From: Miscanthus floridulus | Lineage: Eukaryota; Streptophyta; Magnoliopsida; Poales; Poaceae | Length of the DNA stretch: 64,000 bases | NCBI RefSeq assembly: GCF_019320115.1 | Contig: NC_089593.1 | Span: forward strand, 35,473,835-35,537,834 | Direction of reading: 5' to 3' | Shown: piece by piece, positions 1 through 51,594 of the stretch | How the letters are laid out: the number at the start of each line of letters is the position of its first letter | Position numbering within the stretch: position 1 is the stretch's first letter | Program-made: the position numbers and the translations under genes | The notes under the pieces: generated by a model | The model's input: the letters and a program-made list of their open reading frames with translations, nothing else | Database searches by the model: none | What the model was told of the DNA's origin: nothing

Positions 1-2658
1 ACTGCCCTCACCGTGGCTAGGCTGCTCCAGACCATCTCCGTCTTCACCGAGTCCACCATCATGATCACAGTAAGCTCCTGAGTGTGATGCTCACTCTTCC
101 TTTGACTCTACTGCGCCGTAGCCCTAGTTACATCGACCACCGTCGTGTCTGAGCCGCCATGGCCGGCGTGGGCCTCCCTCCGGTGTGCCTACTGCCGTTA
201 TGAGGACTGTGATAGATTCGTATGATGGTGTAGATCATTTTGGTGCTATCCGCTTCGCCGGAGACTCGCCGTCGGCGCGTTTTGGCCGTCCAGTATGGCA
301 GCGCCGCCGTGCGTCTTCGTTGTGTCGCTGACAGCGGGCCCAGGCTGTCAGTGAAGCTGAGGGAGAAGAAGAACAGTGCTGATTTTTGTTTTCTGATTTT
401 GAATAGTGCAGCAATTTGGCAATTTTGTAGGAATTTATTTACACATCCAAAAATTCTAAAAATTTGTGGGTAGCTTCTGTACATGTTCTAGTATGATTTA
501 AAAATTTGAAACTTGGAATTTGAATAAATTTTTAATGTTAAAATATTTAGTCCTTTAATTGAAAAATGCAATTTCCATGATTTTTGTAGGTCACTATATA
601 ACTCCAAAAATTATGAAATTTATTTTGGTACACTAATTTATCATGAGGAAGCTTACATAAAAATTTGAGCTTAATTGGACAAAGTTTATTTTATACCTAA
701 TGTAGACTTAAGTATTTAATTAATTATTCATTTAATCAATGTTTACTCAATTAAGATTTGTTTGACTTTAGAGTTGATTGTTGACCTTGGGTCATTAACT
801 TATAATGATCCTTAGTACCTTAATTAGTATTGAACTTATACCTAATTTGTGATTAGCAAATCTTAATGACATTTCATGTGATAACCGAGGTCATTAACAA
901 GTTAACTCGTCGAAACCCTAAGTGTTTGATTAGTGTTGGATCTTGTTTTGGTCATGTTTTGTGACTAGTAGGGTTCCAAGATCCATTAGGTCAAGTCACA
1001 TGTGTGGTTCTTAATAATAGTGTTGCAGGTTGGTTTTTTTGGCTTGCAACTGTTCCGCGAAATAAAATCTTTTGCGGTTGTTTTTATATTTCATGTGCCG
1101 TGAAAGCATCATGTTTACATTATCATCATGTTAAAGCATATGTTATCATTTCGTGTAGAACCCGAGAACGAAACGATTCTAGTTGAGCAAGTTCTGGAAG
1201 AATCCCCGGTTGTCACGGGATTTGATAATTGTGGTACTAATCCGGAACCGGAAATCGTCAACGAAGGCAAGCCCCGGTTTATGCATTAAGCCCTTACCTT
1301 GTTTACTTTGAAAAGTTATCACCTATGTTATTTATTGCATTAAGTTGTTTAATTCAAATGTTACCTACTTGATGCATTACCTACCTTGATAATTGTTTAC
1401 CATCCTTGAAGATGTTTTCGTTTATAAAGGCGTAGTGTGCTTAGTATGCTTTATGGTAGGATTTCAAAGTAAAAGTTTCGATACAATCAAAGATGGCATA
1501 CTGGCCAAAGAAAGAAAGGATGTAGAATGAATTAGAGACTAGTCGGGTGACTTATCTTGAATGTTGGGTAATGTTGCCGACTATGTCGCTTAAAGGCCAC
1601 TCATTGTGGATCTTCTGAACGAGACACTTTGTAGTACTGGTCACATACTCCGGTAAGCCTACTTCGGCTAATCCGATACTAAGACGAATGCCCGCGCACT
1701 GGGAGTGGAGAGATGGCGGGAGTAGCGTGTACCCTCGTGGCTGGAATGTGGCCTGGATTTGAGGTGTGCTGTGCTCTCGGGTGGCGTGGAGACGGCTTAG
1801 TATAGGAGGATCCGGTAGCGAGGTTGATATATGCAAGATTAAGTTCTACATATGTCGTGTGATAAGGAATCCCCAGCTGGGACTTGAATCAATTCGAATT
1901 GCCGGTGCTCCGCGGATATGGAGACTCGATTCATTACAGAAGCAATGTAGTACTGGTGAATTACTAAAATATGAGAAAAAGAATGGAATGAGAAGGAATG
2001 GAATATGGGAAATGTATATTTAGTTGAGATAATGAACTAAAAGAACTTAGTGGTAAACTTGAAAATAGAATGAAGGATAGTAAGCTTTTGGCAAAGAACT
2101 TTTGAATCTTGCTACATCCTTACCTTGCCCCAAATCCCTGCATCTCTAAAGTCTTACACCCCGTTACGTCGGGTTAGTCTTGTTGAGTACCTTTGTACTC
2201 AGGGTTTGTTAACCCTTGTTGCAGGTGAGTCGCATGCGCAGGCTTGTTTTGGTCCCTGCTGCATGTCAGTGTTTGAAGTCAACGATGATGATGAGGAGTA
2301 ATGAATGGCCTTTGGACAAGGCACTAGTTTGTATGATAAATAAAGTTAATGTAATATTATCCCGCTACTATGGTTGTATGACACTTATGGTATTGTAACT
2401 TTGAAAACAACTGGTTTGTAATAATGCTATCTTAAGACTTCCGCTATCTTTTACTCTGATATATATTTGAATAAACTGTTGTAATCTGCAATGACTGTGA
2501 TTGGGATCCTGTTTGAAAAGAGAAACGTGGATGATTCGGGTTTCCCGAGGACACCCGACAGACCTGTTGAGTTGTTGGGAACTCGTGTACGCTATCCGAG
2601 GTCTGTTAAGACAACGATAGGTGCATGTGGGCCCGATTCCTTAGGAGGTTCTGCCACA
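1..2658 (+). repeat. Partial left LTR of Tekay-type chromovirus T1
   Basis: This is the downstream part of a long LTR whose start lies outside the window. It aligns collinearly with 9447-12073, the complete LTR between T1 and T2, and ends with the same ...GCCACA just before a tRNA-type primer binding site. It is about 31 bp longer than the matching part of the complete copy, mostly through small insertions in the first 420 bases. The ORFs in it (for example 1766-2023) also occur in the other copy but have no recognisable domain, so I do not call them genes. A GAGTAC-CTTT-GTACTC hairpin at 2185-2200 precedes a splice-acceptor-like TTGCAG at 2219-2224. Confidence 0.9.
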
Positions 2659-2660
2659 GC

Positions 2661-2674
2661 TGGTATCAGAGCAG
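2661..2674 (+). other. Primer binding site of T1 (initiator tRNA-Met type)
   Basis: TGGTATCAGAGC starts two bases after the LTR end. This word is the usual plant retrotransposon primer binding site complementary to the 3' end of initiator tRNA-Met. The same word recurs at 12076 after the complete LTR, which fixes the LTR/internal boundary in both copies. Confidence 0.9.
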
Positions 2675-3046
2675 TTCCCATCTAAGATCATTGTAGGTTA
2701 CTTTGGAAAACCTTCAAAATGATTTGGATCAATGAAAGTAAACATGATATTTTGAAAGTTCAATTTCTTTCTTCTTACCTTTGATCTAGACTCAATCCTG
2801 ACTTATTTGAAAAGTTTGTGGCGGATAATATGATTAGGTTTGTCCTATGTATTATGAAAATCTAGTACTTATGATTATATTAATCTTTTGTACTTAGATT
2901 CGTAAGATCGATTCATGCATCATGCTTGAGCACATTGCATAATAATTCCCCTTAATAGTGGTTGGGTAAGTAATGTCAATCCCATTCTTGCTAACCTCCG
3001 TTATCCTCAAGCTATTCTTATAGTCCTACCCTAAATTCTTCAGGCT
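2675..3046 (+). other. Untranslated leader of T1
   Basis: This AT-rich leader lies between the primer binding site and the first internal ORF. I see no coding potential. It repeats almost unchanged at 12090-12459 in T2. Packaging or dimerisation signals would be expected here, but I cannot identify one. Confidence 0.6.
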
Positions 3047-3583
3047 ATGGCAAAGACCAAGAAAACCGCACGCAAGTCCACCGGACCTCATGGAGTCCCG
3101 CGTCACCAATTGGCGCCAAGAAATCACGAGCTTGGTGAAGGAAGTTCCAAGAACCTAGGAGAGGAAGGATCTTCGAGCAACCCCGCCAACGTCGAGAACC
3201 TTAACAAGGAGCTCAACACTCTTCGTCGAGCTCATGCCAAAGACCAAGAAGAGCTGGCGGAAATGCAAAGGGGCATCACCATGACCATGGAGCTGCGGAA
3301 TGAAGCCTGGACACGAGAAGATGCGGCCAATGAACGCGTCAATGAGTTGGAGTTCTATGTAGAGGACCTGGAGATGGACAATGCCATCCTTCATGAGAAT
3401 GTCCATATGCTGTATGCTCAACTTCATCCTCCTCATGGGGATGGTGAAGTTACCGATGAAGAAATGATTGTAGCTCCAGGAGAAGTCGAGAATGAAGAAG
3501 AGGAGGAGGACCCTGAGGAGTTAGTGTACTTCTCAGATGAAGATGAGGTTTCATCTGATACGGGCACGGATGCCGAAGACTGA
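3047..3583 (+). CDS. Extra ORF upstream of gag with histone H3-tail-like N-terminus, coiled coil and acidic C-terminus
   Basis: This is an intact 178-residue ORF. Residues 2-13 read AKTKKTARKSTG against ARTKQTARKSTG in histone H3, and residues 18-23 (PRHQLA) match H3 PRKQLA after a one-residue insertion. Positions equivalent to H3 K4, K9, S10 and T11 are kept. About residues 50-127 are a charged, heptad-like coiled coil rich in Glu, Leu and Asn. The last 44 residues are highly acidic with a run of Glu and a SDEDE segment. There is no histone fold, so this is not a histone gene. It lies 158 bp upstream of gag in the same element, and T2 carries a broken copy at 12460. The function is unknown. 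Mimicry of H3 to engage writers, readers or chaperones is my inference. The ATG is the first in the frame and the repeated copy begins at the same codon. Confidence 0.85.
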   Translation: MAKTKKTARKSTGPHGVPRHQLAPRNHELGEGSSKNLGEEGSSSNPANVENLNKELNTLRRAHAKDQEELAEMQRGITMTMELRNEAWTREDAANERVNELEFYVEDLEMDNAILHENVHMLYAQLHPPHGDGEVTDEEMIVAPGEVENEEEEEDPEELVYFSDEDEVSSDTGTDAED

Positions 3584-3741
3584 AAGCTTGGAGTAGTAGT
3601 AGTTCCTTTACTGCTTTCCTAGAAAACCAGGGTTGTCTTGTGGGATACAAGACATGTAATTAAATAAGAACCCTTTGTAGCATGCAACCTTTTAAAAGCT
3701 TTCAATAAAGAATAATGTAAGTAAATGTGTTTCTCTAACAG
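3584..3741 (+). other. Spacer between extra ORF and gag, with poly(A)-like signal and splice-acceptor-like site
   Basis: This 158-bp spacer contains AATAAA at about 3703-3708 and ends in TTTCTCTAACAG directly before the gag ATG, which looks like a 3' splice site. It is nearly identical in T2. A spliced gag-pol RNA, or separate termination of the upstream ORF, would be possible. Neither is shown by sequence alone. Confidence 0.45.
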
Positions 3742-4677
3742 ATGCCTCGTCCTATCACCCGAACTGGTGCTAGTGGCTCGCATGATGATGATGAGTGCCC
3801 AAATCCTCCACCAATGCCCTCGACTATGGCAGATGCCATAGCTGCACTCGTCAACGCAACGGCAGAGAATGCCAGGCTAGTTAAGGGAGTTGGCGCAGAA
3901 CCAGCAGGCACCATACCCTAATCGTGGCCGTCGTAATAATGGAAACGACGAGTCAACCTATGTGGATTTTACTGACACACAGTCCGCCTGTGTTCTCTAA
4001 GGCAGACGAACCTTTAGAAGCTGATGATTGGCTTAGGACAATAGAGCAAAAGTTCGAGCTGATCCACTGTACTGAGGTTCAAAAACCAAGGTTTGCGGCA
4101 CAGCAACTCCGAGGAGCTGCTGGTGCCTTGGTGGGCAAATTTGGTAGCAGTACAGCCCGTTGGTCACCAAATCAACTGGAGGGAGTTCAAGGATGCCTTC
4201 AGGGCACATTATATTCCGGACGGTGTGATGACCATGAAGCTGGAAGAGTTCTTGGCTCTTAAGCAAGGGGAGCACCCGGTGATGCATTATGTTGGGCGTT
4301 TCAACCACCTGTCTCAGTATGCTATTGAGTATGTGAATACGGACAGGAAGAAAAAGAATCATTTTCTTCGAGGCTTGAACACTAAACTTCAGACAATGAT
4401 GGCAGCCTGTGGTAATGCAACTTACCATGAAACAATCAACATTGCTATCGCTTCGGAAGAAAATTACCGCCGACACAAGGAGGCGAAGAAGAAGAAAATA
4501 TTTGCTTCCGGATCATCAAGTGGCAAGCGTCAGAAGATAGTATACCATCCTCAGAATCATGGCCGTACGCCATTCCGCCCACAACAAGGCCAAAGCAGGC
4601 AGCAAATCTTCATTCGCCCTGCAACTAATACACCTTATACATCATCAAGCACCACAGCAGCAGAACAATGCCAATAA
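3742..4677 (+). pseudogene. T1 gag (capsid), frameshifted
   Basis: The gag frame starts at ATG 3742 (MPRPITRTGA...) and contains the plant retrotransposon gag core: ADDWLRTIEQKF at about 4020-4055, then FKDAFRAHYIP, EFLALKQGEHPVMHYVGRF and FLRGLNTKL. It encodes the capsid that packages the element's RNA. Comparison with T2 and frame tracking show extra single bases near 3879, 3981 and 4128, and another frame change near 4640, each moving the frame by +1. T2 lacks the three at 3879, 3981 and 4128 but has a different extra base nearby. The protein cannot be read through as given. The breaks may be real decay or sequence error. Confidence 0.85.
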
Positions 4678-7105
4678 TGCAAACCGCAATGCTACTCCCC
4701 AGAATCACAATTTTCCATGCTATAATTGTGGTAAACCCGGGCATTTTTCCCGAGAATGTCCGTATCCTAGGAAGAACAATCCTGATGCAACCAAAGCCCC
4801 TGTTAATCAAGCTCAAAATCAGTACAAGGGCAATGCTCAGAACCATCAAAAGGGTCCGGCTGAGAAGAAAACTGGAAGGGTATTCTATACGCAAGTGGAA
4901 TCTATTCCAGAAGGAGAACCAGTTATGATGGGTATGTTTCCCATTGCTAAGCATCCTGCAATTACCTTATTTGATTCTGGTGCATCCCATACATTCATCA
5001 ATCGTACATTTGTTGTGAAGCATGGGATAGCTATTGGGGAAACAAAAGAACCCTATCATATACAGTCGCCTGGGGGACGAATCTGTACAAGGGAGGTAGT
5101 TCAGCATGTACCTATTGATTTGGGAGGTTATGAGTTCCCTACCAATATGCTGATATTAAAGGATCAAGATATAGATGTGATCCTTGGTATGAACTGGCTA
5201 ACTCAACACGGGGCTATCATAGATGTCCTGCATAGAACAATAAGGGTAAATGCACCTGACAGCAAAACCCAACTTCTCATCCAACTTCCTTTTCCTAAGA
5301 GTACAGTGGAGACAGTCTGTGCAACTATTGTTGAAGGAGCCGAGGAAATTTCAGTGGTATGTGAGTTTACGGATGTCTTTCCCGATGACCTGCCTGGTCT
5401 GCCACCAGACCGAGACGTAGAGTTCAGAATTGATCTGAAACCAGGGACAGCACCAGTGTCCAGAAGAGCATATAGGATGCCACCGAAAGAATTAGCAGAA
5501 TTAAAAATGCAACTACAAGAGTTGTTAGACAAGGGTTTCATTCAACCCAGTTCATCACCTTGGGGATGTCCTGCTATTTTCGTGAAGAAGAAGGACCAAA
5601 CCTTAAGGTTATGTGTTGACTATAGGCCATTAAATGAAGTCACCATCAAGAACAAATACCCCTTACCCCGAATTGATTTACTTTTTGATCAACTTGCGGG
5701 AGCTAAGGTATTCTCAAAGATAGACTTAAGATCAGGCTACCACCAGATTAAGATCAGACGTGAAGATGTGCCAAAGACAGCGTTTACTACCCGATATGGA
5801 CTATATGAGTATTTAGTCATGTCTTTTGGGCTGACCAATGCCCCGGCTCATTTCATGTACCTGATGAACTCAGTTTTCATGCCTGAGTTGGATAAGTTTG
5901 TCGTGGTGTTTATTGATGACATTCTTATCTACTCTAAGAGCAAAGAGGAACATGCGGAACATCTCCGTATTGTTCTACAAAGATTAAGAGATCACCAACT
6001 ATATGCCAAATTCAGCAAATGTGCATTTTGGTTGGAGGAAGTACAATTTCTGGGTCATGTGCTATCTGCTGAAGGTATAGCTGTTGATCCGAGCAAGGTA
6101 GAAGAAGTCCTTAATTGGAAAGCACCTACAACTGTTCATCAAGTTCGTAGCTTCCTGGGGTTGGCAGGGTATTACCGTCGGTTTATCCCTGACTTCTCCA
6201 GAATTGCGAAGCCAATTACTGGACTGTTGAAAAATCAAACAAAGTTTGTATGGTCAACAGAATGTGAAGAGGCCTTTCAGACATTGAAGAAGTTGTTGAC
6301 AACTGCACCAGTATTAGCACAACCTGATATCGAGAGGCCATTTGATATCTATTGTGATGCATCTGGAATTGGTATTGGCTGTGTTCTTATGCAAGAAGGC
6401 AGAGTCATAGCATATGCTTCCAGACAACTCAAGAAGCATGAAGAACATTATCCCACCCATGATCTTGAATTAGCTGCTGTTGTCCATTCACTCAAGATTT
6501 GGCGACATTATTTATTGGGCAATATATGTCATATCTATACGGATCACAAGAGTCTGAAATACATCTTCACTCAGTCAGAGCTGAATATGAGGCAAAGGAG
6601 ATGGTTAGAACTTATCAAAGATTATGACTTAGAAGTGCATTATCATCCGGGCAAGGCTAATGTGGTTGCCGATGCCCTGAGTCGCAAGAGTCATTGTCAT
6701 TGCCTAATTGTAGAACCTATGCAGCGAACATTGTGTCAAGAGATGGAGCATCTGAATTTACAAATCATAGAACAAGGTTCCCTGTCCAATATTGTAGTTG
6801 AGTCCACTATCAAAGATCAGATCATTGCTGCTCAACAGAAAAGTAAGGGCATAGCCCATATTAAGGATAAAGTCAGATCTGGAAAACCAACATGTTTCAA
6901 GATTGATGAATCAGATGTCGTATGGTTCAAGGATAGGTTGGTAGTACCCAAAAATCCGGAGCTGCGAAAGCAGATTCTTGATGAAGCTCATTCTACAAGA
7001 TACTCCATTCATCCGGGTAGCAACAAAATGTATCATGATCTGAGAAAGAGATATTGGTGGACCAAAATGAAAATAGAAATAGCTCAATATGTAGGCCAAG
7101 TGTGA
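4559..7105 (+). CDS. pol: T1 pol: zinc knuckle, protease, reverse transcriptase, RNase H, integrase N-terminus
   Basis: This 848-residue open frame joins the end of gag to most of pol. Domains in order: a CCHC zinc knuckle at residues 54-67 ([14 protein letters not shown]); aspartic protease with FDSGAS at D139; reverse transcriptase with [11 protein letters not shown] and the catalytic FIDD at D453/D454; RNase H with IYCDASG at about D600 and DALSR at its end; and the two histidines of the integrase zinc-binding domain near the C-terminus. All the catalytic motifs I checked are present. The frame is lost at about 7094, between the histidines and cysteines of the integrase HHCC motif, because of one extra base. 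The true gag-pol start is probably upstream at 3742, and residues before about 35 are likely out of frame. Confidence 0.92.
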
Positions 7106-8243
7106 TATTTGTCAGAGAGTCAAAGCAGTTCATATGAAGACTGCAGGTCCATTACATTCGTTGCCAGTTCCATCTTGGAAGTGGGAAGATATCTGTATGG
7201 ACTTCATAGTAGGGTTGCCTAGGACATCTGCAGGCTACAATTCAATATGGGTTATTGTTGATCGTCTAACCAAAATAGCTCATTTCTTGCCAGTCAGAGA
7301 TAAATATCGAGCGGAGCAGTATGCAAAGCTTTATCTTGATAGAATTTTCAGTCTGCATGGGGCACCCAAGACCATTGTCTCTGATAGAGGGTCATTGTTC
7401 ATATCCAAGTTTTGGAAAAGTCTACATGAGTCTTTAGGAACTAAACTTATCCGTAGTTCTGCTTATCATCCGCAAACAGACGGACAGACTGAAAGGGTAA
7501 ATCAAATTCTTGAAGATATGTTAAGAGCATGTGTTCTTTCCTTTGGTGCTAAATGGGATGAATGCCTTCCCTTAGCTGAATTCTCATATAACAATAGCCA
7601 TCAAGAGAGCATTAAAATGGCACCATTCGAAGCACTGTATGGCCGTAGGTGCCAAACACCTTTAAATTGGTCAGAAGCTGGAGAACGTTGGTTCTTTGGA
7701 CCGGATGTGGTCAAGGAAGCTGAAGAGAAAGTTAAACTCATACAAGCTAATATGAAGATAGCTCAATCCCGACAGAAAAGCTATGCTGATAAGAGGAGAC
7801 GACCGCTAGAATTCAAAGTGGGAGATTATGTCTACCTCAAGGTATCACCGATGAAAGGAGTTCATCGTTTTGGGATTCGGGGAAAGTTGGCGCCCCGTTA
7901 TGTCGGTCCTTTTCAGATCCAACAACGATGTGGACCAGTCGCCTATCGCGTCAAGCTACCAGATCACATGTCAGCGGTGCATGATATCTTTCATGTATCT
8001 CAGTTAAAGAAGTGTCTTCAAGTACCTGACCAAGAGATCGACTTTGGTGATGTAGAACTAGAACCTGATTTGACTTATGCCGAGTACCCCATTAGAGTCT
8101 TAGATCAGAAAGATCGAGTCACTCGGAGACGTACGATCAAGTTCTACAAAGTACAATGGAATCAACACACTGAAGATGAAGCTACTTGGGAGTCCGAGGA
8201 TTACTTAGAAGAGAACTTTCCTGACTTCTTCGCTTCTATCTAG
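7095..8243 (+). CDS. pol: T1 pol continued: integrase core and chromodomain-like C-terminus
   Basis: This is the continuation of pol after the +1 shift at about 7094; the first ATG in this frame is 7134. Counted from that ATG, the integrase catalytic triad is D23, D84 and E120, a D-60-D-35-E spacing. [19 protein letters not shown] and [12 protein letters not shown] follow. The last 65 residues (from about YPIRVLDQ through KFYKVQW and ATWESEDYL) are chromodomain-like, which places the element in the chromoviruses. The long LTRs and tRNA-Met primer site fit the Tekay/Del clade. Plant chromodomains of this kind often lack part of the aromatic cage, so binding to methylated histone is not certain. 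Confidence 0.9.
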
Positions 8244-8376
8244 TTGCAATACCTTGTCTATATTGTAACTTGTCTTGTTGTTAACAGAATGGAAAACCCC
8301 CTCACTAGCCTTTTGAATAAAGTTATGATGTGTTAGCTTGACACATTTCCTTTTCCATTACTTAGCCTTAAGTTTT

Positions 8377-8395
8377 AAATCTCGGGACGAGATTT
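8377..8395 (+). promoter_or_regulatory. Inverted repeat next to the polypurine tract of T1
   Basis: AAATCTC-GGGAC-GAGATTT is a perfect 7-bp stem with a 5-nt loop just upstream of the polypurine tract. The same stem with one loop change occurs at the same place in element W (46575-46593, minus strand). It may be an RNA structure for termination or for minus/plus-strand DNA priming; this is inference. Confidence 0.6.
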
Positions 8396-8397
8396 CT

Positions 8398-8412
8398 TTA
8401 AGGGGGAAGGGT
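8398..8412 (+). other. Polypurine tract of T1
   Basis: AAGGGGGAAGGG lies immediately before the TG of the LTR at 8413. This is the normal primer site for plus-strand DNA synthesis and fixes the internal/LTR junction. Confidence 0.85.
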
Positions 8413-11400
8413 TGTAACACCTCTGGTGTTTTGACCTAATACTAAAATTTGACATGTCATCATGTGCATTGCAAAGCATTCATATAGTATAAAGTTTTGA
8501 ATGCATTCACTAAATAAGGTTTATTTCATAATGTTGTTATTTCATGTGATGTGTTTCAAAAAACCCTAAATACAGATCATGACCACAAGGGTCAAATTTC
8601 ATGTGATCATGTGAGGCCATAGTGTCATTTGACTCAAATAACCCTAATGGGCCATGTTACTGGTCAAAAATCAAAATCTAAGTAAAAGGAAGACAAATCA
8701 AATTTGAATTCACATTCAAATTATAAAAGTCCTTTTTGCCCCTTTTAACTAATTCAAAATCCATGAGGAATTTGGGGTTGAGGCAAAAAGCAAAGTTGGA
8801 GATTATTTTATAAGGATCAACTTTGGTATTCAAAGTTTTTCAAGTTTACATACAAAATTTGGAGTAATTTTGAAATGATTCAAATCTTTAAATGTACCCC
8901 AAATGTGAAATTTCAAAATGGAGGCAGAATTTGAAAATGTTTCTTAAACCAAAGTTGTAGTACTTGAAAAGTTGAGCAACTTTCATTTTTGGAGATTTTC
9001 AACTTCTTTAGAAAATTTGGAGTAATTTGAGAAATGGAAGCAGTGGCAGTTCTGTAATTATTTCAAAAATTCACCTCCACCTCACTGCTTGCCGCCGGCG
9101 CCACGCGGAGGTCAGCTTGCCGCCGCCCTTCTCGCCGCTTTCCACCGCGTGACACGCACGATGTCACCGTGGCGAACCGCCCGTGCGTTGGCGACACCGG
9201 ACGCCTCTTCCGGGCTATAAATAGCCACCGTCGCCGCCGTCGCTCCATTCTTCCCTCTGCTCTGCTCCGCCACCGCGTAGCTCCGCCGCTCGCCGTAGGC
9301 CTCGTCGAGCCGCGTCTGTCGTTCCCAGCTACGTCAACGCGATCGCATTGGTCTTGTGCTCCTCCTCGACTTGCTCTCGTCGCTGGTGTTGGCCGGAATC
9401 GCCCGGCGCAACCCGTCTTCCCCGTGACCGGTCGAGCTCCGCCGCGACTGCCTCACCGTGGCCAGGCTGCTCCAGACCATCTCCGCTCACCGATCCATCA
9501 TGATCACTGTAGCTCCTGAGTGTTGCTCACTCTTCCTTTGACTCTACTGCGCCGTAGCCCTAGTTACATCGACCACCGTCGGGTCCGAGCCGCCATGGCC
9601 GGCGTCGGTTCCTCCGGTGTGTCCTCTGTTCTGAGGCTTGGGATAGATGCGCGACTTGGTGTAGATCATGTAGGAGCAGTCCGTCGCCGGAGATCACCAC
9701 GGCGCGTTTTGCTGGCCAGTGGCCGCGCCGCCGTGCGTCTTCGTTGTGTCGCTGACGCGGGCAGGCTGTCAGTGAGCTGAGGAGAGAAGAACAGTGCTGA
9801 TTTTTTTTTCTGATTTTGAATAGTGCAGCAATTTGGCAATTTTGTAGGAATTTATTTACACATCCAAAAATTCTGAAAATTTGTGTAGCTTCTGTACATG
9901 TTCTAGTATGATTTAAAAATTTGAAACTTGGAATTTGAATAAATTTTTAATGTTCAAATATTTGTCCATTAATTGAAAAATGCAATTTCCATGATTTTTG
10001 TAGGTCACTATATAACTCCAAAAATTATGAAATTTATTTTGGTACACTAATTTATCATGAGGAAGCTTACATAAAAATTTGAGCTTAATTGGACAAAGTT
10101 TATTTTATACCTAATGTAGACTTAATTATTTAATTAATTATTCATTTAATTAATGTTTAATCAATTAGGATTTGTTTGACTTTAGAATTGATTGTTGACC
10201 TTGGGTCATTAACTTATAATGATCCTTAGTACCTTAATTAGTATTTGAACTAATATCTAATTTGTAATTAGTAAATCTTAATGACATTTCATGTGATAAC
10301 AAAAGTCATTAACAAGTTAACTCGTCGAAACCCTAAGTGTTGATTAGTGTTGGATCTTGTTTTGGTCATGTTTTGTGACTAGTAGGGTTCCAAGATCCAT
10401 TAGGTCAAGTCACATGTGTGGTTCTTAATGATAGGGTTACAGGTTGGTTTTGTTGGCTTGCAACTGTACCGTGAAATAAAATCCATTGCGGGTGTTTTTA
10501 CATTTCATGTGTCGTGAAAGCATCATGTTTACATTATCATCATGTTAAAGCATATGTTATCATTTCGTGTAGAACCCGAGAACGAAACGATTCTAGTTGA
10601 GCAAGTTCTGGAAGAATCCCCGGTTGTCACGGGATTTGATAATTGTGGTACTAATCCGGAACCGGAAATCGTCAACGAAGGCAAGCCCCGGTTTATGCAT
10701 TAAGCCATTACCTTGTTTACTTTGAAAAGTTTATCACCTATGTTATTTATTGCATTAAGTTGTTTAATTCAAATGTTACCTACTTGATGCATTACCTACC
10801 TTGATAATTGTTTACCATCCTTGAAGATGTTTTCATTTATAAAGGCGTAGTATGCTTAGTATGCTTTATGGTAGGCTTTCAAAGTAAAAGTTTCGATACA
10901 ATCAAAGATGGCATACTGGCCAAAGAAAGAAAGAATGTAGAATGAATTAGAGACTAGTCGGGTGACTTATCTTGAATGTTGGGTAATGTTGCCGACTATG
11001 TCGCTTAAAGGCCACTCATTGTGGATCTTCTGAACGAGACACTTTGTAGTACTGGTCACATACTCCGGTAAGCCTACTTCGGCTAATCCGATACTAAGAC
11101 GAATGCCCGCGCACTGGGAGTGGAGAGATGGCGGGAGTAGCGTGTACCCTCGTGGCTGGAATGTGGCCGGATTTGAGGTGTGCTGTGCTCTCGGGTGGCG
11201 TGGAGACGGCTTAGTATAGGAGGATCCGGTAGCGAGGTTGATATATGCAAGATTAAGTTCTACATATGTCGTGTGATAAGGAATCCCCAGCTGGGACTTG
11301 AATCAATTCGAATTGCCGGTGCTCCGCGGATATGGAGACTCGATTCATTACAGAAGCAATGTAGTACTGGTGAATTACTAAAATATGAGAAAAAGAATGG

Positions 11401-12073
11401 AATGAGAAGGAATGGAATATGGGAAATGTATATTTAGTTGAGATAATGAACTAAAAGGACTTAGTGGTAAAACTTGAGAATAGGAATGAAGATAGTAAGC
11501 TTTTGGCAAAGAACTTTGAATCTTGCTACATCCTTACCTTGTCCCCAAACCCCTGCATCTCTAAAGTCTTACACCCCGTTACGTCGGGTTAGTCTTGTTG
11601 AGTACCTTTGTACTCAGGGTTTGTTAACCCTTGTTGCAGGTGAGTCGCATGCGCAGGCTTGTTTTGGTCCCTGCTGCATGTCAGTGTTTGAAGTCAACGA
11701 TGATGATGAGGAGTAATGAATGGCCTTTGGACAAGGCACTAGTTTGTATGATAAATAAAGTTAATGTAATATTATCCCGCTACTATGGTTGTATGACACT
11801 TATGGTATTGTAAGTTTGAAAACAACTGGTTTGTAATAATGTTATCTTAAGACTTCCGCTATCTTTTACTCTGGTATATATTTGAATAAACTGTTGTAAT
11901 CTGCAATGACTGTGATTGGGATCCTGTTTGAAAAGAGAATCGTGGATGATTCGGGTTTCCCGAGGACACCCGACAGACCTGTTGAGTTGTTGGGAACTCG
12001 TGTACGCTATCCGAGGTCTGTTAAGACAACGATAGGTGCATGTGGGCCCGATTCCTTAGGAGGTTCTGCCACA
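8413..12073 (+). repeat. Complete 3.66-kb LTR shared by T1 and T2
   Basis: The LTR starts TGTAACACC after the polypurine tract and ends GCCACA before the primer binding site of T2. It serves as the 3' LTR of T1 and the 5' LTR of T2. It has an AT-rich U3 of about 800 bp, a TATA box at 9216-9223, a GC-rich block (about 9060-9780) like a grass gene's first exon and 5' UTR, then about 2 kb of AT-rich leader. At 11600-11615 it carries the GAGTAC...GTACTC hairpin, followed by TTGCAG and GTGAGT. A length above 3 kb is usual for Tekay-type elements. ORFs inside (9169-9519, 9520-9780) look like by-products of GC-rich sequence. Confidence 0.92.
9215..9224 (+). promoter_or_regulatory. TATA box of the T1/T2 LTR promoter
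   Basis: CTATAAATAG sits at the boundary between the AT-rich U3 and a pyrimidine- and GC-rich leader. This is the layout of a grass RNA polymerase II core promoter. Transcription would be expected to start about 30 bp downstream, near 9248-9255. Confidence 0.75.
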
Positions 12074-12075
12074 GC

Positions 12076-12089
12076 TGGTATCAGAGCAG
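12076..12089 (+). other. Primer binding site of T2 (initiator tRNA-Met type)
   Basis: TGGTATCAGAGC begins two bases after the complete LTR, identical to the site at 2661. It shows that a second internal region starts here rather than host flanking DNA. Confidence 0.9.
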
Positions 12090-12459
12090 TTCCCATCTAA
12101 GATCATTGTAGGTTACTTTGGAAAACCTTCAAAATGATTTGGATCAAGGAAAGTAAACATGATATTTTGAAAGTTCAATTTCTTTCTTCTTACCTTTGAT
12201 CTAGACTCAATCCTGACTTATTTGAAAAGTTTGTGGCGGATAATATGATTAGGTTTGTCCTATGTATTAAAAATCTAGTACTTATGATTATATTAATCTT
12301 TTGTACTTAGATTCGTAAGATCGATTCATGCATCATGCTTGAGCACATTGCATAATAATTCCCCTTAATAGTGGTTGGGTAAGTAATGTCAATCCCATTC
12401 TTGCTAACCTCCGTTATCCTCAAGCTATTCTTATAGTCCTACCCTAAATTCTTCAGGCT

Positions 12460-12998
12460 ATGGCAAAGACCAAGAAAACCGCACGCAAGTCCACCGGACC
12501 TCATGGAGTCCCTCGTCACCAATTGGCACCAAGAAATCACGAGCTTGGTGAAGGAAGTTCCAAGAACCTAGGAGAGGAAGGATCTTCGAAGCAACCCCGC
12601 CAACGTCGAGAACCTTAACAAGGAGCTCAACACTCTTCGTCGAGCTCATGCCAAAGACCAAGAAGAGCTGGCGGAAATGCAAAGGGGCATCACCATGACC
12701 ATGGAGCTGCGGAATGAAGCCTGGACACGAGAAGATGCGGCCAATGAACGCGTCAATGAGTTGGAGTTCTACTGTAGAGGACCTGGAGATGGACAATGCC
12801 ATTCTTCATGAGAATGTCCATATGCTGTATGCTCAACTTCATCCTCCTCATGGGGATGGTGAAGTTACCGATGAAGAAATGATTGTAGCTCCAGGAGAAG
12901 TCGAGAATGAAGAAGAGGAGGAGGATCCTGAGGAGTTAGTGTACTTCTCAGATGAAGATGAGGTTTCGTCCGATACGGGCACGGATGCCGAAGACTGA
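12460..12998 (+). pseudogene. T2 copy of the H3-tail-like ORF, frameshifted
   Basis: This copy starts with the same ATG and the same H3-like residues as 3047. Within the tail-coding segment the two copies differ only at synonymous positions (CCG/CCT and GCG/GCA codons). Extra single bases at about 12589 (A) and 12772 (C) shift the frame, so only the tail and the acidic C-terminus can be read, in different frames. As with T1, all indels are insertions. Confidence 0.85.
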
Positions 12999-13156
12999 AA
13001 GCTTGGAGTAGTAGTAGTTCCTTTACTGCTTTCCTAGAAAACCAGGGTTGTCTTGTGGGATACAAGACATGTAATTAAATAAGAACCCTTTGTAGCATGC
13101 AACCTTTTAAAAGCTTTCAATAAAGAATAATGTAAGTAAATGTGTTTCTCTAACAG

Positions 13157-14030
13157 ATGCCTCGTCCTATCACCCGAACTGGTGCTAGTGGCTCGCATGA
13201 CGATGATGAGTGCCCAAATCCTCCACCAATGCCCTCGACTATGGCAGATGCCATAGCCGCACTCGTCAACGCAACGGCAGAGAATGCCTAGGCTGTTAAG
13301 GGAGTTGGCGCAGAACCAGCAGGCACCATACCCTAATCGTGGCCGTCGTAATAATGGAAACGACGAGTCAACCTATGTGGATTTTACTGACACACGTCCG
13401 CCTGTGTTCTCTAAGGCAGACGAACCTTTAGAAGCTGATGATTGGCTTAGGACAATAGAGCAAAAGTTCGAGCTGATCCACTGTACTGAGGTTCAAAAAC
13501 CAAGGTTTGCGGCACAGCAACTCCGAGGAGCTGCTGGTGCCTGGTGGGCAAATTTGGTAGCAGTACAGCCCGCTGGTCACCAAATCAACTAGAGGGAGTT
13601 CAAGGATGCCTTCAGGGCACATTATATTCCGGACGGTGTGATGACCATGAAGTTGGAAGAGTTCTTGGCTCTTAAGCAAGGGGAGCACCCAGTGATGCAT
13701 TATGTTGGGCGTTTCAACCACCTGTCTCAGTATGCTATTGAGTATGTGAATACGGACAGGAAGAAAAAGAATCATTTTCTTCGAGGCTTGAACACTAAAC
13801 TTCAGACAATGATGGCAGCCTGTGGTAATGCAACTTACCATGAAACAATCAACATTGCTATCGCTTCGGAAGAGAATTACCGCCGACACAAGGAGGCGAA
13901 GAAGAAGAAAATATTTGCTTCCGGATCATCAAGTGGCAAGCGTCAGAAGATAGTATACCATCCTCAGAATCATGGCCGTACGCCATTCCGCCCACAACAA
14001 GGCCAAAGCAGGCAGCAAATCTTCATTCGC
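13157..14030 (+). pseudogene. T2 gag, frameshifted and cut by the assembly gap
   Basis: This is the gag copy of T2, collinear with 3742-4615 of T1. An extra base near 13289 shifts the frame. At about 13592 a TGG codon has become TAG in a CTGG context, ending the frame in front of the FKDAF motif. It then reads openly from 13638 into the run of N. The rest of T2 (pol and its right LTR) is missing. Confidence 0.85.
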
Positions 14031-14130
14031 NNNNNNNNNNNNNNNNNNNNNNNNNNNNNNNNNNNNNNNNNNNNNNNNNNNNNNNNNNNNNNNNNNNNNN
14101 NNNNNNNNNNNNNNNNNNNNNNNNNNNNNN
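14031..14130. other. Assembly gap of 100 N
   Basis: Exactly 100 N, the conventional placeholder for a gap of unknown size. It separates T2 gag from an unrelated copia LTR, so the order and distance of what lies on either side are not proven. Confidence 0.98.
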
Positions 14131-46579: not shown

Positions 46580-48036
46580 TCATCCCGAGATTTGAAAAGC
46601 GTACCATTGTTGATAGAATTCCTTATAACCATCCCTCAAATAATCTTCTCTTTCCCACATTGCATCGCGTTCACTACCCTGATTACTCCACATGACTTTA
46701 TAAAACTTGACCACCCGACTCCGAGTCACTCGCTCACGAGTGTCAATCACTCGAACCGGCTTTTCTTCAAAGGTCAAATCTGATTTTAACTCGATATCCC
46801 CCAATGGAACTCTCTCTTCAGGGACTGCGAAGACATTTCTTCAATTGGGATACATGAAAGACATTGAAGATAGCACTCATCTCAGGAGGTAATTGAATCT
46901 TGTACGCCACCTGACCACTTTGTCCAATGATTTCAAATGGACCAACATATCTCAGGCGCAAGCTTTCGCTTCACACCAAAGTGTTGGACACTCTTCATGG
47001 GTGAGACTTTCAGATAAACTAAGTCTCCAACTTCGAACTCAATAGGTTTTCTACTGTCGATCAGCATAACTTTTTTGCCTAGCTTGAGCTGCGGCCATAT
47101 GGGTTTGGATAGTACGGACTTGTTCTTCGGCTTCTTGAACAAAATCAATTCCATAATATCTCCTTTCACCGGCTTCTACCCAATTCAACGGGGTTCTACA
47201 CTTCTGGCCATACAACGCTTCAAACGGTGCCATCTTGATACTCTCTTGATAACTGTTATTGTACGAGAATTCAGCTAGGGGCAACCATTTTTCCCATGAG
47301 CCCTTAGCCGAGATGACACATGCTCTCAACATATCTTCTAAGATTTGATTCACTCGTTCAGTTTTCCCATTGGTTTGTGGATGATAGGCAGAACTTCTTA
47401 CTAGCTTAGTTCCTAATAATCCATGTAAGTGCTCCCAAAAGCAAGTAGTGAAATGTGGTCCTCTATCTGAGACAATAGTACGAGGGATCCCATGAAGTCG
47501 GACTATCTGATTAAAGTACAACTCCGCATAGTTAGTTGGACGGAAATCTATGCGGACAGGAATGAAGTGTGCAGACTTGGTCAGACGGTCTACAATCACC
47601 CAAATGAAGTTAAAATTCCTCTGAGTAGTAGGAAGTCCAACAATAAAATCCATACTTATCTCCTCCCATTTCCAACCTAGAATAGAGAGTGGCTGAAGTA
47701 ATCCAGCTTTCATGTGCATAGCCTTGACTCGACAACAAGTGTCACACCTAGCCACATAAGCGGCTATCTCTTTCTTCATTTTGGTCCACCAAAAGTGAGG
47801 CTTCAAATCATGATACATTTTGCTACTACCAGGATGAATAGATAATTTAGAGGAATGGGCTTCGAATATGATTTGATTTATAAGTTCTCTATCCTTTGGA
47901 ACTACCAACCTATCCTTGAACCATAACATGCCATCCTCATCTACTCGAAAATGTTTGGTTTCTTCCTCTTTCATCTTGCGCTTGATGTGAAACACACCTG
48001 CATCTGTCTTCTGTAGCTTGACAATTTGACTCTATA
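46580..48036 (-). pseudogene. pol: W pol 3' part: integrase and chromodomain-like tail
   Basis: The main frame 47051-47995 carries the integrase zinc finger (HSSKLSIHPGSSKMYHDL, then CDTCCRVKAMHMK) and the core with [17 protein letters not shown] and TERVNQ, all catalytic residues present. Frame changes near 47045 and 46930 lead into [19 protein letters not shown]. The chromodomain-like end lies at 46580-46804 (PVRVIDTRERVTRSRVVKFY, AMWEREDYL). It is a different chromovirus family from T1 but from the same broad group. Upstream, coding similarity is lost at about 48036; reverse transcriptase, protease, gag and the 5' LTR are absent. Confidence 0.88.
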
Positions 48037-48175
48037 GAGTACAAATGACAGTGATGTTGTAAAGGACTACAGGATGAAGGAGCTTTGACAAATGGACATT
48101 GACATCAGCACTTTATGAGACATTGACATCCTTGTATAATTCTAGCTGATAGGATTGTTATCGGCACTTATACTT
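48037..48175 (-). other. Junction between W and R
   Basis: About 140 bp that fit neither the W integrase frame nor the R pol frame. It may be what is left of the 3' untranslated region of R. No LTR end or target duplication is visible, so the junction looks like a deletion rather than an insertion boundary. Confidence 0.5.
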
Positions 48176-50602
48176 TTATGCATCCATCCAGATACTAGGG
48201 TAATATTTCTTTAAATATTTTCCATTTAATGCTCTGGGAAACACAACCCCTTCGAGGGTTTCTAGAATATATGTGTTACTAGGAACAGACTGATTTATCT
48301 AATATGGACCTTCCCAATTAGGAGACCACTTTCCAAACTTTGAACTTATAGTCCCAATCGGTAAAATCAATTTCTAGACCAGATCTCCATCGACAAACTC
48401 CTTTACCTTCACCTTCTTGTCATACCATCTGGCTACTCTTTTCTTATTTTCTTCGATGCTAACTAAAGCCCTTAACCGATGACCCGCCACATCTTCCAAC
48501 TCATCCTTCATAAGAGTATCATAATCATCGGCTGTCAGCTGATTTTGAGAATGTATTCGCCTAGAGCCAGTTTTAATTTCCCAAGGCAATACTACGTCGT
48601 GTCCATATACTAACTGATAGGGCGTTACTTTGGTTGCACCATGACATGACATCCGATATGACCACAAGGCTTCATTTAATACTGTATGCCACCTCTTAGG
48701 ATTTTCTTTAATTTTGCACTTAATGAGTTTGATGATCCCTTTGTTAGAAGCCTCAGCCTGACCATTAGCTTGAGCATAATATGGAGAAGAATTTAAAACT
48801 TTAATTCCCATACCTACAATAAACTCATCAAATTCTCCCGATGTAAACATAGTATCCTGATCAGTAGTAATAGTTTGAGGAATACCAAATCGGTAAACAA
48901 TATGCTCCTTCACAAAATCGATCATATTAGCCGATGTCACCTTTTTTAAAGGAATTGCCTCAACCCATTTTGTGAAATAATCGGTAGCAACCAGAATAAA
49001 TTTATGTCCTTTACTCGATGGTGGATAAATCTGACCGATGAGATCGATAGCCCATCCCCGGAACAGCCAAGGTTTAATTATAGGGTTCATAGCCGATGCA
49101 GGCGCTCTTTGAATATTACCAAACTTTTGACACCCCTGACATCCTTTAAAATATTTAAAACAATCTTCAAGAATAGTCGGCCAATAGTATACATTCCTTC
49201 TGATCATCCACTTCATCTTGAAAGCCGATTGATGCGCTCCACACACTCCTTCATGAATTTCACCCATCAAGCTTTTCGATTCATCATTGCTAACACATCT
49301 GAGTAAAACTCCATCTATAGTTTGATAATATAATTCATCATCGAGGAGCACATACTTGGTAGCTTGGAACCTTATACGTCTTTCAACCTTTTTATATGGA
49401 TCCTTTAAATAATCAACAATCTCCTTTCTCCAGTCATCGGTATCGACTGCCGATGTTAGCACTTCCTGAATAGGCTGATACCCTGAAGCATGCTGAGCTA
49501 GTCGATTAGCTTCTTCATTATGCAGTCGAGAAATATGTTCAAGATGAAAATCTCTAAACCCTTTCAACAATTGCAAACATCTTTCATAATATGAAATTAA
49601 AACTTCACTTTGGCATTCATAAATCCCAGCCAATTGATTTATAACTAGCATAGAATCACCAAAGATTTCAACAGCATCAGCACGTATCTCCTTCAGTAAT
49701 TCTAACCCTTTTATCAAGGCTTGGTATTCAGCCTGATTGTTTGTCGATGTAGCAACAATCGGCAATGAAAACTCATACTTCCTTCCTTGAGGTGAAATCA
49801 ACACAATGCCGATACCTGCTCCTTCACCACATGTGGACCCATTGAAGAAAAGTGTCCAAGGAGCAACCTCCAGAGAGTCCACTGTATTATAATGCTGAGT
49901 GACAAAATCAACCATAACCTGCCCCTTAACTGCCTTAGTCGATTCGTAACGTAGTTCAAATTCTGATAATGCTAAAATCCACTTGCCGATTCTACCACTT
50001 AATATCGGCATCGACAGCATATACTTGACTACGTCGTCTTTGCATATGATCGTACATTCAGCAGATAACAAATAATATCTTAATTTGACACAAGAAAAGT
50101 ATAAACACAGACATAATTTTTCGATGGTCGAATACCTTGTCTCAGCATCCACTAATCTTCTACTCAAATAATAAATAACACGTTCTTTCCCTTCAAATTC
50201 TTGAATAAGAGCTGAACCGATAACGGTATCATCAGTTGACAAATACAACCTAAAAGGTTTCCCGTGTTGAGGTGGAACTAGCACTGGAGGATTTGTTAAA
50301 TATTTCTTAATTTCATCTAGGGCTAACTACTGCTCAGCTCCCCATACAAATTCTTGATCGGCTTTCAATTTAAGTAATGGACTGAAAGCCTTGATCTTAC
50401 CCGACAGATTAGATATGAATCTTCTAATGAAATTAATCTTACCGATCAAAGATTGCAATTTAGTTTTATTGGCAGGAGCAACCACCTTGTTAATTGCATC
50501 AATAGACTTTCCACTGATTTCGATGCCCCGCTGATGCACCATAAAACCCAAGAATTGACCTGCCGATACACCAAATGCACATTTATTAGGATTCATCTTC
50601 AA
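48176..50602 (-). pseudogene. pol: R pol: RT thumb, RNase H, archaeal RNase H, integrase
   Basis: Minus strand. The frame 50327-50602 holds the thumb (MNPNKCAFGVSAGQFLGF). After one stop, 48374-50284 is open for 636 residues. RNase H runs from about LYLSTDDTVIGSALIQE. The archaeal RNase H reads WTLFFNGSTCGEGAGIGIVL, where the usual DGS is NGS (49841-49843), so a catalytic Asp is lost. The integrase zinc finger follows (HEGVCGAHQSAF, CQGCQKFG), then the core with WAIDLIG, TTDQDT and GQAEASNK. A TAG at about 48375 interrupts the last part, which continues to about 48176 (YILETLEGVVFPRALNGKYL). It is the best preserved Tat pol in the window. Confidence 0.9.
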
Positions 50603-50632
50603 TCCATGCTTCCTTGTGCACTCCAGTATCTT

Positions 50633-51412
50633 TCATAGATCGGCTAGATGTTTTGTGATATCTCTAGACTTAATCACTACATCATCAATGTATATCTCCA
50701 CTAATGTGCCGATGTATTCATGAAAAATAAAGTTCATAGCTCTTTGATAAGTAGCGCCAGCATTTTTCAAACCAAACGTCATGACTATCCACTCAAACAA
50801 CCCTACATGACCTAGACATCTGAAAGCAGTCTTGGGAATATCTTCTTCAGCCATGAATATTTGATTGTAACCTACATTACCATCCATGAAGCTGATAATT
50901 TGATGTTCGGCTGCAGCATCAATCAATAAATCAGCAATCGGCATTGGATAGCCATCCATCGGTGTGGCTTTGTTGAGATTCCTGAAATCAATACAAACAC
51001 GAAGTTTTCCATTTTTCTTATAAACAGGAACCACATTAGAGATCCACTCTGCATATCGACACTGCCGAATAAACTTTGCCTCAATTAATTTAGTTATTTC
51101 GGCCTTAATGTCATGAAGTATATTAGGGTTGCATCGGCGCGCTGGCTGCTGATGTGGCCGAAATCTAGATTTGATAGGTAACCGATGTTCAACTATCGAT
51201 CGGTCTAATCCAGGCATCTCAGTATAATCCCAAGCAAAACAATCTTTATACTCTTTTAACAAATCAGTTATTTGCTGCTTATACTTGGAATCTAACTTAG
51301 CACTAATAAAAGTAGGTCTTGGCCTATCGCCATCACCAATATCTACTTCTACTAAATCATCTGCCGATGTGAACCCTTGACCTAATTTTCCATCATCGGC
51401 AAACCTATCCAT
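50633..51412 (-). CDS. pol: R reverse transcriptase
   Basis: This 259-residue open segment contains the RT linker FAWDYTEMPGL, RHLP-type strand, GKLRVCIDFRNLNKATPMDG, YNQIFMAEEDIPKTAF, WIVMTFGLKNAGATYQRAM and the intact catalytic IYIDDVVIKS. The M at 51412 is only the first Met of the stretch; the pol frame runs in from 51595 across stops. A stop at about 50632 separates it from the thumb domain. It copies the element RNA into DNA with the RNase H domains downstream. Confidence 0.88.
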   Translation of the reverse strand: MDRFADDGKLGQGFTSADDLVEVDIGDGDRPRPTFISAKLDSKYKQQITDLLKEYKDCFAWDYTEMPGLDRSIVEHRLPIKSRFRPHQQPARRCNPNILHDIKAEITKLIEAKFIRQCRYAEWISNVVPVYKKNGKLRVCIDFRNLNKATPMDGYPMPIADLLIDAAAEHQIISFMDGNVGYNQIFMAEEDIPKTAFRCLGHVGLFEWIVMTFGLKNAGATYQRAMNFIFHEYIGTLVEIYIDDVVIKSRDITKHLADL

Positions 51413-51594
51413 TAAAACTCTTCTTCAGAACCGACTGCTTGGATCGGTGGAATTTCATAATCAGCAACTCTAAGGAATTCTTTTTCCCAAACTTCTCCTG
51501 ATATGCATTTAGTTCGCTCATAAGTATCTGATTCTGCCGATGCGATGATATAAGAAGAATCACCAGGGACAAACTCAATCTTATCCCCAATCCA

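Follow-up and report, generated by a model that had tools for sequence, protein, structure and literature searches.

A chromodomain retrotransposon ORF0 of Miscanthus floridulus starts with a conserved segment that nearly copies the histone H3 tail, a possible decoy for H3K9-methylation silencing

Why does a retrotransposon protein begin like histone H3? The question is raised by a 64,000-nucleotide stretch of the Miscanthus floridulus genome (contig NC_089593.1; hereafter the window), in which a first-pass annotation had singled out a reading frame with an H3-like start. The frame lies between the primer-binding site (PBS) and gag of a chromodomain Ty3/gypsy element, on the same strand, and by this location it is an ORF0. 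Such additional frames, also termed 5'aORF, are known from Retrosat2, RIRE3 and RIRE8 as well as from relatives in maize, sorghum and Brachypodium, and have been called divergent, with hydrolase-like or dsRNA-binding-like predictions (PMC3485330; PMC11728184). In abundant grass retrotransposons they have been in print since at least 2012 without an accepted function (PMC3485330). The word "histone" is absent from the main texts of both papers and, as a whole word, from the accessible text of a review of additional ORFs (PMC7264820). A literature search over titles and the beginnings of abstracts, in which subscription journals are little covered, gave no earlier description of H3 likeness in a retrotransposon ORF0 among the papers listed.

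The element belongs to an LTR-internal-LTR-internal tandem (window positions 1-14030), two elements with a common middle LTR, directly followed by a run of 100 N (14031-14130). A purine tract at 8400 precedes the second LTR of ~3.66 kb, and thereafter the series begins anew. The integrase ends in a chromodomain (PF00385, 26.0 bits against a Pfam cut-off of 25.1), in agreement with the annotation of a chromovirus-type element; the gag-pol reading frames of the window copy are interrupted. Retrosat2, RIRE3, RIRE8 and grass Tekay-type elements, which are related Ty3/gypsy elements, are built alike, with an additional ORF that separates gag from a long LTR (>3 kb). The LTR length agrees with the >3 kb of Retrosat2 and RIRE8, but the LTR ends do not: TGTCACACCC...GGGCGTGACA are expected (PMC3485330), and those of the window start with TGTAACACCT and end with TTCTGCCACA, so we do not file the element under the Retrosat2/RIRE8 family proper. 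The clade name Tekay is given by build and by the first-pass call. Likewise, the link to published ORF0s is one of position and build, and the H3 likeness sets the window's ORF0 apart from the published descriptions. Another Ty3/gypsy-like element, or more than one, lies on the minus strand at positions 47051-53391 and may be nested. An Rfam scan of the window gave no match at gathering scores.

Table 1. Features of the window; positions are counted from its first nucleotide.
Feature	Position	Strand	Evidence or remark
5' LTR, truncated by window start	1..2658	+	direct repeat, spacing 9.4 kb; LTR end motif at 2647 and 12062
PBS TGGTATCAGAGC	2661..2672	+	exact match at 2661 and 12076
Leader intron, 78 nt, GT-AG	2966..3043	+	sequence; locus L021 without exactly 78 nt; 10 exact spliced-junction copies genome-wide
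ORF0 (5'aORF), 178 aa	3047..3583	+	open reading frame; 137/150 scored genomic copies without inner stop
H3 residues 1-12-like segment AKTKKTARKSTG	3050..3085	+	K9 equivalent at 3074-3076
H3 15-23-like segment VPRHQLAPR	3095..3121	+	K18 position = His, 3104-3106; HQLA zero changes on 66-protein tree
Predicted 81-residue helix, likely coiled coil (residues 46-126)	3182..3424	+	AlphaFold, mean pLDDT 96-98 in blocks 51 to 120
Acidic disordered C-terminus	3467..3580	+	18 D/E, 0 K/R in 38 residues; low pLDDT
Candidate 3' splice site TTTCTCTAACAG adjoining gag ATG (3742)	3730..3741	+	sequence; AG likewise in eight F2 loci
Zinc knuckle, protease, reverse transcriptase, RNase H, integrase start	4559..7105	+	Pfam
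Integrase with C-terminal chromodomain (about 8115-8228)	7134..8243	+	Pfam PF24626, PF00385 above cut-offs, PF00665 just below
Middle LTR, common to second tandem partial element	8413..12073	+	after AAGGGGGAAGGG at 8400, before PBS at 12076; boundaries by eye
Second ORF0 copy: tail intact, body frame broken	12460..12998	+	sequence comparison
Integrase zinc domain	47051-47995	minus	further Ty3/gypsy-like element
RNase H/integrase	48374-50284	minus	further Ty3/gypsy-like element
Reverse transcriptase	50633-51412	minus	further Ty3/gypsy-like element
Protease-like, below cut-off	51595-53391	minus	further Ty3/gypsy-like element

The ORF0 starts with a genuine H3-tail mimic that recurs in many relatives. 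Residues 2-13 equal H3 1-12 at 10 of 12 positions, as noted at first reading, and in 200,000 shuffles of these residues that identity never arose. The second block, originally aligned as PRHQLA to PRKQLA of H3, is indeed H3-like, but a one-residue insertion after G12 had been overlooked; the block reads PxG-VPRHQLAPR, with VPRHQLAPR opposite H3 15-23. P16, R17, Q19, L20 and A21 are shared with H3, whereas other residues stand in place of K18 and K23 and the position of K14 varies. Searched alone against the PDB, the protein gave 21 matches at E<=1: SEC2 and, in register, 20 N-termini of histone H3; the best E of 0.096 is not significant by itself. With a profile of 22 relatives the best H3 match reached 6.9e-6 (a chain with the label Cse4 and an N-terminus that looks like an H3 tail), with one of 15 more diverse relatives 4.4e-8, and among the matches listed in the two profile searches (60 of 157 and 60 of 197) all are H3 or H3-variant chains. 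The relative P0135 is identical to H3 1-12 at 12 of 12 positions and to H3 1-21 at 18 of 21, ungapped.

To assemble relatives, three protein searches at E<=0.01 were run, giving 423, 49 and 3302 family members, the third with only 7982 candidates scored. The listings gave the best 120 of the 423 and the best 120 of the 3302; the distinct relatives listed and retrieved number 240, hence 241 proteins with that of the window. Such a search favours conserved segments because relatives are found through shared 5-residue words. The tail columns are covered by 194 of the 241, which supports the recurrence that the first-pass annotation had made the touchstone of its idea. The 47 others mostly start at an inner Met or past an apparent frame change (39); 5 begin without Met and 3 hold a partial tail (list read by eye).

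Identities to H3 1-12 among the 194 tails range from 6 to 12, most commonly 9 (92/194). The K9 equivalent is retained in 191, T6 in 189, R8 in 174 and S10 in 162. Of the K4, K9, S10 and T11 equivalents singled out at first reading, K9 is thus kept across the family and S10 is not universal; the emphasis on K4 is not supported, as this position is lysine in the window copy and in 86 tails overall, with arginine in 107 (K or R in 193/194). Methylation of K4 as the core function is rejected on these counts; S10/T11 signalling on the tail is possible. At position 18 there is His in 191/194 and never Lys; at position 23, Arg in 183 and Lys in 7. Most tails have Pro at the T22 position, and 19 of 51 clusters have Pro or Gln in place of A7. 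After the start Met stands A in 94/194 and P in 63/194; by a crude rule, with A, P, S, T or V in 175/194, first-Met removal as in H3 is expected for most ORF0s because a small residue follows. A large MPPRTR-like group would have an N-terminus one residue longer than that of H3 after Met removal. Its member P0098 found best identities of 36-43% in the Miscanthus genome among 150 of 8021 candidates scored, the matches mostly having the open-frame length of the second ORF0 family described below. Since none of those scored is a close match to P0098, MPPRTR-group elements, and hence the tail, likely also exist in other genomes. A scan of viral contigs gave 52 pattern matches and no relative.

Among the relatives compared, the tail is the most strongly conserved part of the protein. 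Over 51 clusters at 80% body identity the commonest residue has a frequency of 0.83 in the tail compared to 0.43 in the body, where the best 20-residue window reaches 0.53. On a midpoint-rooted tree of 66 proteins, built from the body alone, tail sites took a mean of 4.8 parsimony steps and body sites 11.75 (Mann-Whitney p 7e-9). K9 and T6 changed twice, H, Q, L and A of HQLA not once, and at the nine H3 1-12 positions with an unambiguous root the root state is H3's own residue. This conservation spans proteins that are 22-46% identical overall. The histone-like sequence is under purifying selection, more weakly in the second family, as is seen at the DNA level.

From the 2.68 Gb genome, 150 of 9124 first-look candidates were scored, those most like the query, and in these closest copies 137 had no inner stop (hand count). 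Two families were compared, F1 (that of the window, 44 distinct open copies) and F2 (a second ORF0 family of the same genome, 48 copies). A VPxHQLA pattern filter was not used for the tails, as it favours conserved ones, and the F1 dN/dS set leaves out L075, a family-2 sequence. In F1, dN/dS is 0.08 for the tail, 0.10 for linker and coil and 0.25 for the acidic end; in F2 the respective values are 0.51, 0.15 and 0.32. Neutral evolution, which the first-pass annotation had named as the fate that would undo its idea, is thus unlikely for the F1 tail, but the F2 tail lies above its own coil, and even in F1 the contrast between tail and body is not significant (p 0.17). The F2 tail varies at residues 4 (H3 T3) and 24 and in CpG-containing Arg codons. 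With F1 strict and F2 variable, a uniform demand on the tail is disfavoured. F2 copies such as L042, L045 and L051 show drift in the H3-like half, with T3 to A, Q5 to M and A7 to P, while K9-S10-T11-G12 and VPRHQLA mostly stay. The PBS lies 384-389 nt upstream of ORF0 in F1 loci with 0-2 mismatches (exceptions L021, 308, and L030, 359) and 385-405 nt upstream in most F2 loci, again with 0-2 mismatches. In the F2 copy L034/L044 the start codon is joined straight to LTR-like sequence without a recognisable PBS.

The leader appears to hold a record of splicing. A stretch of 78 nt, 3 nt upstream of the ORF0 ATG, opens with GTAAGT at 2966 and closes with TTCTTCAG at 3043, and locus L021 lacks exactly these 78 nt. 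The pattern of the joined flanks occurs genome-wide at 17 places when up to 2 mismatches are allowed, of which 10 are exact and 2 have a single mismatch, compared with 2 for the reversed control. All 10 exact copies hold leader and ORF0 and, by eye, lie in at least 5 sequence backgrounds, including the KITARKS subfamily. Loci noted with an intron-lacking leader are L021 and L115-L124. From their sequence, the intron-free copies are best explained by reverse transcription and reinsertion of spliced RNA; duplication or gene conversion may have multiplied some of them. Acceptor-like sequence is found just upstream of ORF0 in most F2 loci, and an AG directly before the gag ATG in both families (window 3730-3742; F2 loci L039-L053, with eight F2 loci inspected). 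Because acceptor-like sites precede both frames, alternative splicing between ORF0 and gag would be possible.

The remainder of the protein had been described as a coiled coil with a strongly acidic tail rather than a histone fold, and so it appears in the model. AlphaFold (76 sequences) predicts one helix, residues 46-126, with disordered ends (mean pLDDT 73.5, pTM 0.42), and residues 141-178 contain 18 D/E and no K/R. A histone fold in the body is rejected on the single predicted helix and on Pfam, which for the window ORF0 and five relatives listed no match at cut-off and no histone, the sub-threshold matches being mostly coiled coils. Precomputed Pfam tags on some relatives name coiled-coil families such as ATG16. 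The helix probably forms a coiled-coil oligomer.

What, then, might an H3 tail on a rod be for? In plants, H3K9me2, set by KYP/SUVH4, SUVH5 and SUVH6, and DNA methylation by CMT2/CMT3 are mutually reinforcing (PMC7218100). The structure of maize ZMET2 shows the BAH domain reading H3 1-10 with K9me2 and H3 14-23 lying in a groove of the methyltransferase allosteric loop, where K18 inserts into an acidic pocket and must be read for the enzyme to be activated; R17, L20 and T22 are contact residues, T11-G13 are untraced and the K14 side chain is without density (PMC9256654). Judged by sequence, ORF0 presents both contact blocks (1-10 and 14-23), with T22 changed and the activating K18 absent. The sequence follows this map closely: R17 and L20 are kept, the insertion lies at the untraced connector or next to it, and the variable position is that of K14.

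Building on the observed H3 likeness, the conservation of the tail and the copies lacking exactly the leader intron, we put forward, at somewhat less than even confidence, that the 24 residues after Met, which closely copy the H3 tail, are conserved and sit on a predicted coiled-coil rod, serve as a decoy for H3K9-methylation silencing, with CMT3/ZMET2 as the likeliest target. Removal of the first Met would let the tail present Ala1, SUVH4/KYP-type enzymes would methylate the K9 equivalent, and two or more tails, displayed jointly by the rod, would occupy readers. Binding of CMT3/ZMET2 without activating it, proposed because both ZMET2-read blocks are kept while K18 is His, would lower CHG methylation of the element. 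We are distinctly more doubtful of the full version, in which a clade of plant retrotransposons carries a captured H3 tail with K9 and R17/Q19/L20/A21 kept and K18 replaced as a chromomethylase antagonist, made from spliced RNA, whose host-methylated oligomer jams the self-reinforcing H3K9me2-CHG loop.

Several observations count against a decoy. Most tails have Pro in place of T22, which ZMET2 contacts, and the pocket for K18 might still admit the His of position 18. Chromodomain readers are expected to disfavour the Pro or Gln found at A7. The tail dN/dS of F2 and the extra residue of the MPPRTR group do not favour it either, and VPRHQLAPR is fixed on a sequence that is not that of H3, so that its partner could be something else than an H3 reader. 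H3K9 writers or other readers would likewise explain much of the K9 block.

One such alternative is that the tail tethers instead of deceives: methylated at K9, it would be gripped by ADCP1/AGDP1, by chromomethylases or by the element's own integrase chromodomain, bringing the particle or integration complex to chromatin. That the same element encodes a chromodomain integrase fits this, and the coiled coil could bind Gag, but chromodomains are also found in elements without ORF0. In the window chromodomain the W of the methyl-lysine cage is kept, the third aromatic is His and the first may be kept; sunflower Tekay chromodomains are reported to retain only one aromatic of that cage (PMC11728184). 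ADCP1 reads K9me2 together with unmethylated K4 (PMC7218100), and the near-invariant K or R at position 4 is compatible with this. On balance we consider a tether unlikely, if the foremost of the rivals.

Marginally less likely still is that the tail, though derived from H3, now has nothing to do with H3 reading and acts in nuclear import, RNA binding or Gag assembly, for example, through its basic residues and VPRHQLAPR. The most rigid block is precisely the part unlike H3 (H18, P22, R23, with HQLA unchanged), and nuclear localisation has been predicted for the 5'aORF proteins of the grass Tekay elements examined (PMC11728184). However, an import or RNA-binding signal leaves unaccounted for why T6, T11, G12, Q19, L20 and A21 are conserved in H3 register and why the root state is that of H3 at nine positions.

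It is improbable that the segment is conserved as DNA or RNA, for instance because it signals splicing or packaging next to the intron, and not as protein. Synonymous divergence is lower in the tail than in the coil (0.080 and 0.238 in F2, 0.114 and 0.155 in F1), so that some extra constraint may act on the tail DNA, and the tail begins 3 nt past a splice site that appears to be used. Between the families, in contrast, 9 of the 19 shared tail residues use different codons, indicating that the protein rather than the DNA is maintained; tail pS is 0.61, conservation extends across the highly diverged proteins mentioned above, and Rfam is blank. Finally, chance likeness or a histone-gene fusion peculiar to one copy, suggested by the weak single-sequence PDB match, is all but excluded by profile E values down to 4e-8, by the ungapped match of P0135 and by the family-wide recurrence of the tail, that of the window included.

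If the decoy reading is true, ORF0 would directly target the H3K9me2-CMT3 loop by which plants silence transposons, which would help to explain the thousands of copies of such elements, and the fixed change of K18 to His provides a sharp prediction. The H3 tail gives ORF0 proteins a testable function, and the clean losses of the leader intron are a genomic record of splicing beside ORF0 in living plants. Within the literature searched, this would be the first histone-tail mimic described in an LTR retrotransposon.

Parasite-encoded H3-like motifs are familiar from viral histone mimics (influenza NS1 and others). Those motifs are shorter; ORF0 carries ~21 residues of the true N-terminus together with its start, on a protein that lacks the histone fold. 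Among cellular proteins other than histones, PAF15 and DNA ligase 1 similarly contain a segment resembling H3 that DNA-methylation factors modify or read (PMC8594673); they are host proteins serving methylation, whereas ORF0 comes from a target of silencing. The VANC proteins of VANDAL transposons counteract silencing on behalf of a plant transposon, as is predicted for ORF0; in contrast, VANC is a DNA-transposon protein that recognises short DNA motifs, with no histone likeness stated in the accessible part of its description (PMC13317346).
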